Part shown: positions 20,517-55,242 of the stretch, one piece after another
Layout: each line of letters opens with the position of its first letter
How positions within the stretch are numbered: position 1 is the stretch's first letter
Origin: Methanothrix soehngenii GP6
GTDB lineage: Archaea > Halobacteriota > Methanosarcinia > Methanotrichales > Methanotrichaceae
DNA length: 64,000 nucleotides
Direction: 5' to 3'
NCBI RefSeq assembly: GCF_000204415.1
Contig: NC_015416.1
Span: 1,984,001 to 2,048,000 of the forward strand
Notes under the pieces: generated by a model
Told to the model about the DNA's origin: nothing
The model's database searches: none
What the model saw: the letters and a program-made list of their open reading frames with translations, nothing else
Position numbers and translations under genes: made by a program

Positions 20517-21923
20517 CTAACGGATCATCGTCCGGCCAAGGCTCACAAGGAATAAAGCAAGGAGCAGCCAGCCCAGGATGAACTCCAATGTGGCCAGGTA
20601 GCGGTAGACTCCTACTGGGTACCACTTGACCTGGGTCTTGGCGGTGAAGACCATGGCGCTGAAATATAGGTTGTCCAGGAACGTGAGCTCCTCGTTTTGA
20701 CCCTGGAGGTATTCAGATCCATTCAGAGGCTCCACCACGATTCCCATTCCCTGCCAGTAGAGAAATGCGAACAGCAGGATGAAAAAGCAGCTCAAGAAGA
20801 CGGTATATCTGGGCCGAACCCCATAACCGCAGGAGATCCAGGCCAGGCCGTCCAAGAGCTTGGACCAGTTGATCTTTCGGTTTTCCCCTTCCCGGATGGC
20901 AAAGCTCTTGCCCGCCTGGCTCGCGCGACGGTAGTGGTAATAGCAGTCGTCTGCATCCTCGAACCACTCCAGGTTCCTGTAGTTCCTGGCCAAAGAGAGG
21001 TAGGTTTCGCCATCATATCTCAGGTGATTGCACAGCACTGGCCATCTGGCCTCCAGACGGTTGAACTCCGCGTTTTGAAGGGACAACTGACCGGAGATCT
21101 GTGCTCTTGAGAGACGCATTTTATTGATGCTAGCGCCTGCAAAGGTGATCTCTCTTTGGAAACTGGCCGCGGAACAGTCTGCTGTCTTCATGAATGCCGT
21201 CCCATCGAAGAGCGCATCCTCCTGAAAGTGGGCAGAGGCGAAGCTGACCATTGCCAGAAAGGTAGCAGAAGAGAAGCTCGCCTCCTGGCGAAAGGTCGAG
21301 CCGCTGAGGTCAAGAGGTTCGCGGAATATAGAATTGATGAAATTGACCCTCCCTAAAAAAACCGAGTTCCTGATCTCGATGCGAGAGGCCAGTACATGGG
21401 CCAGAGCGGACATATCCCGAGACCTTTCATTGTGAGTCAACTACTCCGGCCTAAAGACCGGAGCTTGTAACTGAGGTAAGATGTTTCCCCGCTACAATAG
21501 GCTGGTTGACACCGACTTGCAAAATCGGTCGAGCCATTTCGTGGTCGAGGCAGCCCGTAAACAGATCATAGCTTCAAATGCATTTCAGCTTAGGCATTGC
21601 TGCCTATTCCGATCTGAGTCAGTGTGTGTCTCTCAGTCATCCCACCGAACCGTTGGCTCCGAAGAGTGTCTTGTGGTCTGAGAAAACAACATGTGGAGAT
21701 GGTATTATGAGAATAAGTATGTTTGTATTGCATTGCGAAAGTAATCCTGGAAAGCGTACGGCTTTCCTCTCCGGCCTGAGGTTTCTATGAAGGGCAGATC
21801 AAGTCTGGATAGGTCAATATCGCCAGCTATCGCCGCGTGCTCATAGATGACTGGCTCTCCACGTTCGATCCTCTCCAGGATCTCGCGGGCCTCAATCACG
21901 GGGAGATTTGATCCTTCTACCAT
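20517..21923 (-). pseudogene. pentapeptide-repeat ion-channel-like protein, interrupted by a 351-bp element
   Basis: The N-terminal piece (ATG 21921-21923) reads MVEGSNLPVIEAREILER...GDIDLSRLDLPF, and the C-terminal piece resumes at HNERSRDMSALAHVLASRIE. Removing 21436-21786 joins them in frame, giving 351 residues. The middle (about 70-170) is a run of pentapeptide-like units (A-x-F-x-x style, for example SGSTFRQEASFSSATF). The C-terminus has two membrane helices (YTVFLSCFFILLFAFLYW and a last helix LGWLLLALFLVSLG) flanking a pore-loop-like segment, as in two-span ion channels. The segment at the filter position is TAKTQVKWYPVG, not the TVGYGD of potassium channels. As sequenced the gene is split, and its products would be truncated. 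Confidence 0.75.
21436..21786 (-). mobile_element. 351-bp non-autonomous IS200/IS605-type element (MITE/PATE-like)
   Basis: Read on the minus strand. The left end starts just after TTCAT (a plausible IS200/IS605 target) and carries a perfect 7-bp hairpin, GGAAAGC-CGTAC-GCTTTCC, about 20 bases in. The right end carries CTCCGG-(8 nt)-CCGGAG followed by TAGTTGAC, the layout of IS605/IS1341 right ends, where the 3' end of the tnpB-associated omega/reRNA lies. No tnpA or tnpB is present. Termini were set by requiring excision to restore the interrupted gene's frame, which it does with no bases lost. There is no target duplication, as expected for single-strand Y1 transposition. Mobility depends on an enzyme in trans. 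Confidence 0.65.
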
Positions 21924-31344: not shown

Positions 31345-31925
31345 AATGAATACCCCGCAGCTTGCTGCGGTTGGGATGGTCAGGAAACCGACTTAAGGAA
31401 AGGGGCATATTCTATGTTAGATGATTGAGGTTAAAAAAGCAAGCCATTGTGCCTACAAAATTCGATATCATATGGTATTTAGTATAAAATATAGAAGAAA
31501 ATTGCTTCAGGATATCGATCGCATTAATTATATCAAATTCGTATGCAGTGAGATCGGTGAACGATACTATTTCGATTTCGATGCAATTGGTACTGATGGT
31601 GATCATGTTCATATCTTTGTTGGAGCAGCGCCAAGATATTCGCCATCAAAGGTTATGCAAATTGTAAAAAGTATAACCGCAAGAGAGTTTTTTAAGAAGT
31701 ATCCTGAAGTGAAAAAACAGCTTTGGGGTGGCGAATTTTGGAGCGATGGAGGTTATGTTGGAACAGTAGGTGATGGTGTTATGGCCGACACTATACGGAA
31801 TTACGTTGAAACTCAAGGATCGCCTGAAGAAAAGGAAGCATATAAGCAAATGAACTTGTTAGATTTCGAATGACGGCAAACGGCGCGAACATGCCCCGCT
31901 GCTTGCAGCGGGGTGCGCTGTTTGA
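31345..31925 (+). mobile_element. IS200-like insertion element (tnpA only)
   Basis: The element has a left subterminal hairpin, CCGCAGC-TT-GCTGCGG, at about 31353-31368, and a right hairpin, CCCCGCTGC-TT-GCAGCGGGG, at about 31893-31912, bracketing a single Y1 transposase gene. This is the organisation of IS200/IS605-group elements that transpose as single strands with no terminal inverted repeats and no target duplication. Exact ends could not be set. It appears intact. Confidence 0.7.
31421..31873 (+). CDS. tnpA: IS200/IS605-family Y1 transposase TnpA
   Basis: 150 residues, full length. TnpA cuts and joins single-stranded DNA at hairpin-marked ends. Visible: IRYHMVFSIKYRRKLL near the N-terminus; the HUH motif in DGDHVHIFV (H62 and H64), which binds the metal; FWSDGGYVGTVG; and the catalytic Tyr in TIRNYVETQ (Y128). 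It is the only gene of the element and could, in principle, also act on related ends. The 351-bp element at 21436-21786 has different hairpins, so it is probably not served by this enzyme. Confidence 0.92.
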   Translation: MIEVKKASHCAYKIRYHMVFSIKYRRKLLQDIDRINYIKFVCSEIGERYYFDFDAIGTDGDHVHIFVGAAPRYSPSKVMQIVKSITAREFFKKYPEVKKQLWGGEFWSDGGYVGTVGDGVMADTIRNYVETQGSPEEKEAYKQMNLLDFE

Positions 31926-31966: not shown

Positions 31967-33028
31967 GAATTCCGAAAAACCCCATTTAATCGATAACTAT
32001 AAATACTATTGTTAGTATATAATGTTACATGAGGAACCTCACTGATTTTGCCCTTCGTCTGGAATACGAACGGGTCAAAGATCTTGGAGATAAGCTGGTC
32101 GATATTGGGGGTAGACTAAATTGGGAAGGCTTCAGACCGCCGCTTGAAGCTATGTACAGGAACAATACCGAATGCGGCGGCCGACCGAATCTCGATGTGA
32201 TCGTGATGCTCAAGTCGCTTTTCATTCAACAGCTATACAGCCTATCCGATGAGCAGCTTGAACGGGAAATTGCCGATCGCATCTCGTTTAGAGTGTTTCT
32301 TGGCACAACGGAGACTGTTCCAGATTCCACAACGATATGGAAGTTCAGAGAACGCCTTGCTGAGACCGGTGCAGACCAGAAAATATGGGCTGAGATGCAA
32401 AGGCAACTTGATGCCATGAAACTCAAGGTGCAAAAGGGAATCATGCAGGATGCCACGTTCATAACATCTGATCCTGGCCATGCCAAAGCAGATACTCCTC
32501 GTGGCGATGAAGCCAAGACCAGGCGAAGTAAAGATGGAGCATGGGCGAAAAAAGGAACTAAATCCTTTTTCGGCTACAAGCTGCATGATGCCATGGACGA
32601 GAAATTTGGTTTGATTAGAAGGATCGAGGTTACAGCTGCTAATGTCCATGATAGTCAAGTAGATTTAGCAGAAGAAGGCGAAGTTCGCTATGCGGATAAA
32701 GGATATTCTGGCGCGAAGACAAAAGGATATGATGCAGCCATGAGAAAAGCCACCCGAGGCCATCCTTTAAGTTACAAGGATGAAATGCGCAACAAGCGGA
32801 TCTCCAGTAAAAGATCGCCTGTAGAGAGGTTCTACGCTTTCATCAAGTGTGTCTGCAAAGCAGGGCATGTCGCTGTTACTACAGTTGCCAGAGTTCGAGT
32901 CAAGATGATGATTACGGGTATCGTTTTCAATGTCTATCATTTGGCCTCGGCCAAAAGCAAAATGGTGGTTTAGCTTTAGCTGTCGAAAAAATATGGAAAA
33001 TAAGAGGAAAATGAGGGATTCAGGAGGC
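31967..33028 (+). mobile_element. IS5-family element (approximate ends)
   Basis: One transposase gene with short flanks. Candidate imperfect terminal repeats are gaattccgaaaaacccc(attt) at 31967-31987 and aaatgagggattcaggagg at 33009-33027; they match over about two thirds of positions with a two-base gap, so the boundaries are tentative. It sits directly beside the IS200-like element and downstream of tRNA-Leu(CAA). Confidence 0.5.
32029..32973 (+). CDS. IS5-family DDE transposase
   Basis: 314 residues, complete. The N-terminal DUF772-type domain contains RPNLDVIVMLKSLFIQQLY and DEQLEREIADRISFRVFLG; the catalytic domain follows with MQDATFITSDPG (first Asp, about residue 141), ADKGYSGAKTKG (second Asp, about 222) and KRSPVERFYAFIK (Glu, about 266). 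No frameshift, so it could be active. An in-frame upstream start is not needed because the ATG at 32029 begins at the family-typical position. Confidence 0.9.
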   Translation: MRNLTDFALRLEYERVKDLGDKLVDIGGRLNWEGFRPPLEAMYRNNTECGGRPNLDVIVMLKSLFIQQLYSLSDEQLEREIADRISFRVFLGTTETVPDSTTIWKFRERLAETGADQKIWAEMQRQLDAMKLKVQKGIMQDATFITSDPGHAKADTPRGDEAKTRRSKDGAWAKKGTKSFFGYKLHDAMDEKFGLIRRIEVTAANVHDSQVDLAEEGEVRYADKGYSGAKTKGYDAAMRKATRGHPLSYKDEMRNKRISSKRSPVERFYAFIKCVCKAGHVAVTTVARVRVKMMITGIVFNVYHLASAKSKMVV

Positions 33029-54603: not shown

Positions 54604-54780
54604 ATGGCTGATTGCGATCTATGTACCCGTGCTCGTCCAACACTTTATCCCATCAAGGCTCCGGTGCATAACCTGACCTATCCTGAGGGAGCCTATAAGG
54701 GAGTATGCGACATCTGCCTGGAGCATCTGGAGAAGGGCTGGCAGGAGCGCTTTGGGTCCAAGCCTGAAGAGAAAAAATAA
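54604..54780 (+). CDS. small two-CxxC (putative zinc-binding) protein
   Basis: 58 residues from ATG 54604, with TAGGAGA about 10 bases upstream. A longer start at 54535 (ATG, adjoining the permease stop) is possible. Two C-x-x-C pairs (CDLC near residue 4 and CDIC near 35) should hold one zinc, with a conserved-looking YPEGAYKG segment between. It lies 68 bp after the permease on the same strand. No named family. Confidence 0.6.
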   Translation: MADCDLCTRARPTLYPIKAPVHNLTYPEGAYKGVCDICLEHLEKGWQERFGSKPEEKK

Positions 54781-54840
54781 ATTAACTTATTTTTAACATA
54801 ATTTTTCTTAGGATTCTGCTAGCCTTGGCTATGCCTGAAG

Positions 54841-55242
54841 ATGATGATTATGAGGATGCAAAAGGAGGAGAAGATAGTAGTGGTATTGCTTTTCATGGCA
54901 CTAGGCTCACTGGCAGCCGCCTTCTGGGCCTTCAGCCCTGAGGAGAGCTATACCCCTGCCTCTGGGGATATGGGATCCGGGGAGAATTCCCGCTCCCCTC
55001 TCATCACTCTGGACGGCCGGATCACAAGCGCAGAGAATACCAGGAGCGGCGGCAATCTGATCTTAAACCTGGATTCGACAGCAATGCCCGTTTTCATTCC
55101 CGCCAGCTCTGGGGCAAAGGAGCTATCAGCTCAGCTTCAGAAGGATACGCGGGTGAGGATCACCGGAACCATAAATAGTTATCAGGGCAAAGATGAACTG
55201 AAGGTATCCAGAAAAGCAGATGTCCAGCTGCTGGAAGGATGA
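54841..55242 (+). CDS. exported OB-fold-like protein
   Basis: 133 residues. One hydrophobic helix (KIVVVLLFMALGSLAAAFWA, about 11-30) anchors or exports it. The rest (about 53-130) resembles a small OB-fold (LDGRITSAENTRSG..., VRITGTINSYQGKDELKVS), the fold of the tRNA_anti/nucleic-acid-binding and BOF-type domains; in exported proteins this fold usually binds small ligands or proteins. ATG 54841 has no strong Shine-Dalgarno; in-frame ATG codons at 54844 and 54853 are alternatives. Function unknown. Confidence 0.65.
   Translation: MMIMRMQKEEKIVVVLLFMALGSLAAAFWAFSPEESYTPASGDMGSGENSRSPLITLDGRITSAENTRSGGNLILNLDSTAMPVFIPASSGAKELSAQLQKDTRVRITGTINSYQGKDELKVSRKADVQLLEG

Follow-up and report, generated by a model that had tools for sequence, protein, structure and literature searches.

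What is a 351-base stretch that splits a gene in the archaeon Methanothrix soehngenii GP6 without encoding a protein, and does its interior do anything? We analyzed a window of 64,000 nucleotides (NC_015416.1, positions 1,984,001 to 2,048,000; G000:C1:1984001-2048000, where G000 is this organism's own genome of 3,026,645 bases in two contigs). The element occupies positions 21436-21786 of the window and is oriented along its minus strand, from a left end at 21786 to a right end at 21436 that reads ..GTAGTTGAC. It is an insertion of the IS200/IS605 type, and its interior is a conserved, covarying structured RNA that carries the 3′ domain of a TnpB omega RNA. For this reason a putatively expressed guide-like RNA, raised only as speculation when the sequence was first read on its own, is now the best-supported hypothesis for what the element makes.

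An insertion without coding capacity

Removal of 21436-21786 restores one frame across the junction (..GDIDLSRLDLPF|IHNERSRDMS..). Since a 351-nt deletion would keep the frame by chance one time in three, the relatives provide the real test. Their orthologues are ungapped at this point (GDIDITRLDLPPIHCERS in G020, GDIDITRLDLPLIHCERP in G021 and GDLDLRKIDLPRIHFERP in G010), and uninterrupted homologues of the split gene occur in nearly every genome of the family. At the DNA level, the window (CTGCCCTTCAT|TCACAATGAAAGG) and G021 (CTGCCTCTCATTCACTGTGAGCG) agree with no base lost or duplicated, and CTGCCCTTCAT|TCACAATG matches CTGCCTCTCATTCACTGTG base for base. Neither target duplication nor base loss is expected of Y1 transposition. 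The sequence-only reading had thus been right about the exact empty site and the lack of a target duplication. It also gave TTCAT as the left flank; this target adjoins the left end of the element, which is the right-hand side in window coordinates, and is read 21791-21787 in the orientation of the element. Hairpins were found near both ends, as it had proposed, the left one being the weaker. Of its description of the host-gene product, the pentapeptide repeats stand (Pfam finds these only), while the label of a two-span channel was not borne out, Pfam finding no channel domain in the split protein.

A protein-coding interior was rejected, as the element holds only short open reading frames (ORFs) and the insertions and deletions between aligned copies do not come in threes. 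When TnpB proteins from seven loci were used as tblastn queries, no tnpB was found inside any copy, save for a C-terminal tail at the right end of the window copy. Short, palindrome-ended and free of transposase genes, the element resembles the palindrome-associated transposable elements (PATEs) and miniature inverted-repeat transposable elements (MITEs), and sequence comparison confirms that it is an IS200/IS605-type insertion of this kind.

Further copies, for which the first reading had recommended a search, are present, and neither of the findings that it had named as refuting came up. One at G000:C1:2171698-2171908 is 97% identical over 209 nt, with a different right-end hairpin. Full copies measure about 350-450 bp from TTCAT to GTAGTTGAC, the flank in most copies inspected is TTCAT, TTCAC or TTCAA, and in the more distant copies, from other species and genera, conservation is limited to certain parts. 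About 25 further places in the genome match the terminal hairpin, many of them ends of tnpB elements (vs. no chance match in 100 shuffles of the window). A fuller element with a matching right end was also found: at G000:C1:969219-969293, where a resident tnpB gene (L003) has its 3′ end, the sequence is 97% identical to the last 75 nt of the window element, in agreement with the IS1341-like right end noted earlier. This segment encodes the C-terminal tail of the L003 TnpB, still recognisable in the window element. The protein looks intact (382 residues; PF07282, E 1.4e-21; OrfB_IS605, E 2.3e-11; motifs GVDLGI, LEDL and ADHIAAMNI), and its element follows TTCAT and starts with AG, as does the one in the window.

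In all, the genome has 49 TnpB-domain matches and six Y1 transposase loci. One of the latter, an intact IS200-type gene of 150 residues at 31421-31873 (with an equal-scoring copy at G000:C1:538913), lies 10 kb from the element and is a candidate mobiliser. It is followed by a 314-residue ORF at 32029-32973 that resembles transposases of the IS5/IS1182 type.

A conserved structured RNA in the interior

We aligned five copies (alignment A2), derived a consensus fold and built a first covariance model (R1), which matched 14 of the 238 genomes of the class; a second model (R2), built from 33 copies, added four more (G010, G046, G165 and G209). The family numbers more than 30 copies in 18 genomes, from Methanotrichaceae, Candidatus (Ca.) Methanoperedens (two genomes) and another family, with weak model matches at L155, L156, L166 and L167. 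No Rfam family was found for the core in three sequence sets. Patterns of the Methanothrix-type core had no match in genome_contigs or viral_contigs, two collections that may not include close relatives of the window genome, and a second pattern search gave a match in Ca. Methanoperedens.

In the 33 aligned cores (197 nt within the window element), fitted to the structure model, 87.9% of cells were paired (vs. 71.0 ± 1.1 in shuffles) and 111 two-sided changes were seen (vs. 37.7). The covariation score was 0.420, compared with 0.168 in shuffles and 0.044-0.109 when the partners were slid. G-U combinations outnumbered A-C by 88 to 23, so that the window's minus strand is the one read as RNA. 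Folding of the single sequence was only mildly stable (z of -1.7 on the minus and +0.45 on the plus strand) and was not used as support. Directly before the core, the copies inspected have an A/T-rich, TATA-like stretch that may act as a promoter. The helices, numbered P1 to P8, are listed with the other features in Table 1.

Table 1. Positions of the element, its RNA parts and the flanking features in the window
Feature	Positions	Strand	Basis
Non-autonomous IS200/IS605-type element	21436-21786	-	Empty site in relatives; further copies
TTCAT target, presumed transposon-associated motif, at left flank	21787-21791	-	Sequence; recurs beside many copies and beside the L003 tnpB element
3′ part of interrupted pentapeptide-repeat gene	20517-21435	-	Homologues, orthologue junctions, Pfam
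5′ part of interrupted gene	21787-21923	-	Orthologue junctions, DNA-level match
Left-end hairpin GGAAAGC-CGTAC-GCTTTCC	21749-21767	-	Sequence; left-end hairpins at the same place in other copies
TATA-like A/T-rich box TACTTATTCTCATAA, presumed promoter	21705-21719	-	Matching position in other copies
Conserved structured RNA core	21491-21687	-	Matches to R1 and R2 (R2 E=3.5e-41 in the window)
P1 hairpin CUC-UUCG-GAG, length varying between copies	21657-21666	-	Alignment A2 by eye, outside the formal pair count
P2 long-range stem (arms 21610-21616 and 21562-21568)	21562-21616	-	Two-sided changes in 7/7 pairs, 33 copies
P3 hairpin UAGGC-AGCAAU-GCCUA	21591-21606	-	Two-sided changes in 6/6 pairs
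P4 stem-loop, conserved loop GAAA..GCAUUUGA	21569-21591	-	Alignment, pair count
P5 stem GGGCUG/CAGCCU (arms 21551-21556 and 21499-21504)	21499-21556	-	Common to cis omega RNAs of tnpB genes
P6 hairpin ACCGAUUUUGCAAGUCGGU in P5 loop	21511-21529	-	Sequence and other copies; absent from cis omega RNAs examined
Right-end 75 nt, 97% identical to the L003 tnpB 3′ end	21436-21510	-	Sequence comparison
Pseudoknot 5′ strand GUCAAC	21505-21510	-	Complementary to 21436-21441
P7 stem UUGUAGC/GUUACAA (arms 21491-21497 and 21465-21471)	21465-21497	-	Compensatory variants in copies and cis omega RNAs
P8 terminal (right-end) hairpin CUCCGGUCUUUAGGCCGGAG	21444-21463	-	Sequence, shuffles, comparison
Right-end terminus GTTGAC, pseudoknot 3′ strand, last scaffold bases	21436-21441	-	Sequence, comparison
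Presumed guide TCACAATGAAAGGTCTCGGG from flank	21416-21435	-	Layout of TnpB omega RNAs

An omega RNA domain and the case for a guide in trans

The RNA resembles the omega RNAs (also called right-end element RNAs, reRNAs) made in cis from the 3′ ends of tnpB genes in IS200/IS605 and IS1341-type elements such as ISDra2 (PMC10097598, PMC8612924). When the core model was run without filters on 31 kb of loci with tnpB genes, its four best matches were the tnpB 3′ ends of L070, L074, L003 and L032 (E 0.011-0.1), and the second model recovered the first three at E 0.005-0.01. Stand-alone and cis RNAs have in common the upstream stem P2, P5 with GUCAAC in its loop, P7, P8 and the terminal GUUGAC. In both groups, compensatory variants occur in P5 (GGGCUG/CAGCCU, GGGCCG/CGGCCU, GGGCAG/CUGCCU; the 5′ arm in the cis RNAs being the best of 20 places, a bias that affects this item only), in P7 (UUGUA/UACAA, UUGUC/GACAA, UUGUC/GGCAA) and in the pseudoknot (GUCAGC/GCUGAC). 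All six pseudoknot pairs are kept in 21 of the 31 copies assessed, including Ca. Methanoperedens. As in omega RNAs, the 3′ domain stops at the right end with a hairpin, and the last scaffold bases pair with an upstream strand, as they do in the pseudoknot of the ISDra2 structure (PMC10097598); a target motif adjoins the left end (TTGAT in ISDra2 vs. TTCAT here), and a guide would be taken from the flank. Computation shows both a structured RNA and an omega-type 3′ end, and the last 75 nt are homologous to L003.

There are also differences. Whereas a cis omega RNA forms the 3′ end of a tnpB gene, this RNA has no such gene in its element (beside copy L170, a separate tnpB element is found about 900 bp off), and it would be transcribed from its own TATA-like promoter. 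Two modules are additional, P3/P4 within the loop of P2 and P6 within that of P5. Both sit where the cis RNA must also encode the TnpB C-terminus, and their presence would therefore fit a release from coding constraint.

We think it probable that the element encodes a stand-alone omega RNA which a resident TnpB uses in trans, and that an element without a protein thereby gains RNA-guided retention. A resident Y1 transposase would move the element in trans. Its own promoter would drive an omega RNA gene on the minus strand, in which the conserved core (P2 to P6) is followed by the TnpB omega RNA 3′ domain (P5, pseudoknot, P7 and P8), and the transcript would run past the right end into the flank, its last bases (TCACAATGAAAGG..) serving as a guide for the empty site. 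The best candidate for a TnpB that binds this RNA in trans is that of L003, with its TTCAT flank and near-identical right end. With the TTCAT of the empty site as target motif, TnpB would cut empty copies (TTCAT + TCACAATGAAAGG.., the target being TTCAT + TCACAATGAAAGGTCT), after loss of the element or on sister chromosomes, and homologous repair would copy the element back, so that an element without a nuclease is kept and spread. The donor would be safe, because insertion parts the TTCAT motif from the guide sequence and leaves TTGAC at the right junction. No other close match to TTCAT plus the guide was found in the genome, the best having three mismatches.

The distribution of TnpB is consistent with this proposal. 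TnpB-domain matches were found in 15 of the 16 host genomes checked; the exception is G060, whose two copies are degraded. The pseudoknot is kept at 42/42 positions in G061, which has 15 TnpB matches, vs. 27/36 positions in the copies of G058, where a single TnpB fragment was matched. Of the 10 copies with a defective pseudoknot, 8 sit in the two genomes with a single fragment or no match. This pattern is suggestive only, because insertion elements drop out of draft assemblies and divergence, too, is greater among the G058 copies.

Several points weigh against the proposal. Transcription, TnpB binding, cleavage and retention are inferred. The alignment was fitted to the structure model, which biases the covariation count toward structure; given the slid controls and how large the effect is, an artefact is unlikely. 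Neither P3/P4 nor P6 is present in the cis RNAs, and a TnpB might not tolerate these modules. Stand-alone and cis RNAs of other genomes have different segments between the P7 strands, so that the match to one particular TnpB is not general, and no tnpB element with the full right end of the G061 type was found. Lastly, the window copy, with its reduced left end, may no longer move.

Four alternatives were weighed. The RNA could occupy TnpB to limit cutting, or silence the flank, without guiding retention. Its 3′ domain is that of omega RNAs, the additions P3/P4 and P6 could alter activity, and a decoy function has been proposed for circular omega RNAs of archaea (PMC12558985). We nevertheless consider this unlikely, as mobility, multiple copies and varied flanks, and hence varied guides, speak for selfish retention more than for a host regulator.

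Marginally less likely still is a plain PATE/MITE, a deletion derivative with a functionless interior, kept because TnpA recognises its ends. There is no protein, ends are enough for mobility, two internal-deletion copies in G020 (L071 and L073) are without most of the core, and ends-only PATEs are known, including one with 58 nt of tnpB and the whole right end (PMC7290912). This does not account for an interior conserved across families with strong covariation, nor for a pseudoknot strand kept about 40 nt upstream of the terminal hairpin, and an element derived from tnpB by deletion would retain remnants of coding sequence in place of a new conserved RNA. A host small RNA, unrelated to TnpB, that was captured by an IS605-type element and became mobile with it would explain why cis omega RNAs have nothing that corresponds to P3/P4 and the 5′ part and why the RNA reaches well 5′ of the shared domain. 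It is more doubtful again, given that the omega 3′ domain is attached in almost all full copies and that P5 and the pseudoknot belong to the same fold. An IscB/HEARO-type element on the plus strand is scarcely credible and was rejected as largely refuted: positions 1-211 of the Rfam HEARO model (RF02033) align from exactly 21436 and GTCAAC..GTTGAC encloses the end hairpin as in HEARO, but the score is 17.2 bits (E 0.6) against a gathering cut-off of 83, that motif pair is self-complementary, the G-U bias and the kinship with tnpB 3′ ends point to the opposite strand, and no gene for an HNH protein, HEARO being associated with HNH/IscB, was noticed in the neighbourhood.

The host genomes contain other elements of this sort. 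In G020, four copies (L031, L069, L071 and L073) carry stepwise larger internal deletions of the core, with very similar ends and promoter regions, all after TTCAA. Three near-identical tnpB-less elements of about 360 bp follow TTCAC in G000:C1 (L019-L021, near 1957044-1957403, 736773-737132 and 54715-55074); their TATA-like region is very like that of L002/L157, their right end like that of the L079-type TnpB (..GTAGCTTAC). They were not recovered in the R2 search and look like a second stand-alone RNA type, likely a relative, suited to another TnpB family. A tnpB-less element of about 200 bp is present in two copies (L017 and L018, near G000:C1:2466903-2467127 and 178072-178298), with a TATA-like box, a GGAGAAACUGUUUCC motif and the right end GAAGCTGAC. 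L004 (G000:C1:511673-511749), in which GGTAGGGCACT.. is joined to GTCAACCAGCC, seems to derive from the L208/L209 type by internal deletion. Matches to HgcC in Rfam (E 0.0028-0.05) lie over the left-end hairpin of tnpB elements (L005, 2718-2906; L006, 2718-2845), a sign that the 'HgcC' RNA family of archaea may in part be IS605/IS1341 end sequence.

A proposed guide RNA apart from its nuclease

Protein-less IS605 elements were already known, and the window element shares with the IS200/IS605 PATEs and MITEs its shortness, palindromic ends, lack of a target duplication and presumed mobilisation in trans (PMC7290912, PMC3119063). What is added here is the RNA inside: a conserved structure, present in many species, in place of ends only. 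The literature covered by our search held no description of a conserved family of TnpB-type stand-alone omega RNAs in archaea; Altae-Tran et al. 2021 or Meers et al. 2023 may discuss PATEs with omega RNA. The former reportedly described stand-alone omega RNAs for IscB, which likewise lack an adjacent nuclease gene; those described here differ in their TnpB-type 3′ domain, archaeal hosts, mobility and conserved extra structure.

More tentatively, and with somewhat more doubt than belief, we suggest that stand-alone TnpB guide RNAs are an old, independently mobile RNA family of methanogenic and methane-oxidising archaea. Freed from encoding the TnpB C-terminus, they would have gained structured modules and, for RNA-guided homing, come to parasitise more than one type of resident TnpB, the selfish unit being the guide RNA and not the nuclease. 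The retention of transposons by TnpB is understood for the cis arrangement, where a single element holds both the nuclease gene and the guide RNA, whereas in CRISPR systems the guides are encoded apart from the nuclease. If the proposal holds, guide and nuclease would be split into parasite and resource outside CRISPR as well. The family would supply a naturally occurring collection of elaborated omega RNA scaffolds, and the persistence of short protein-less IS605 elements would be explained.
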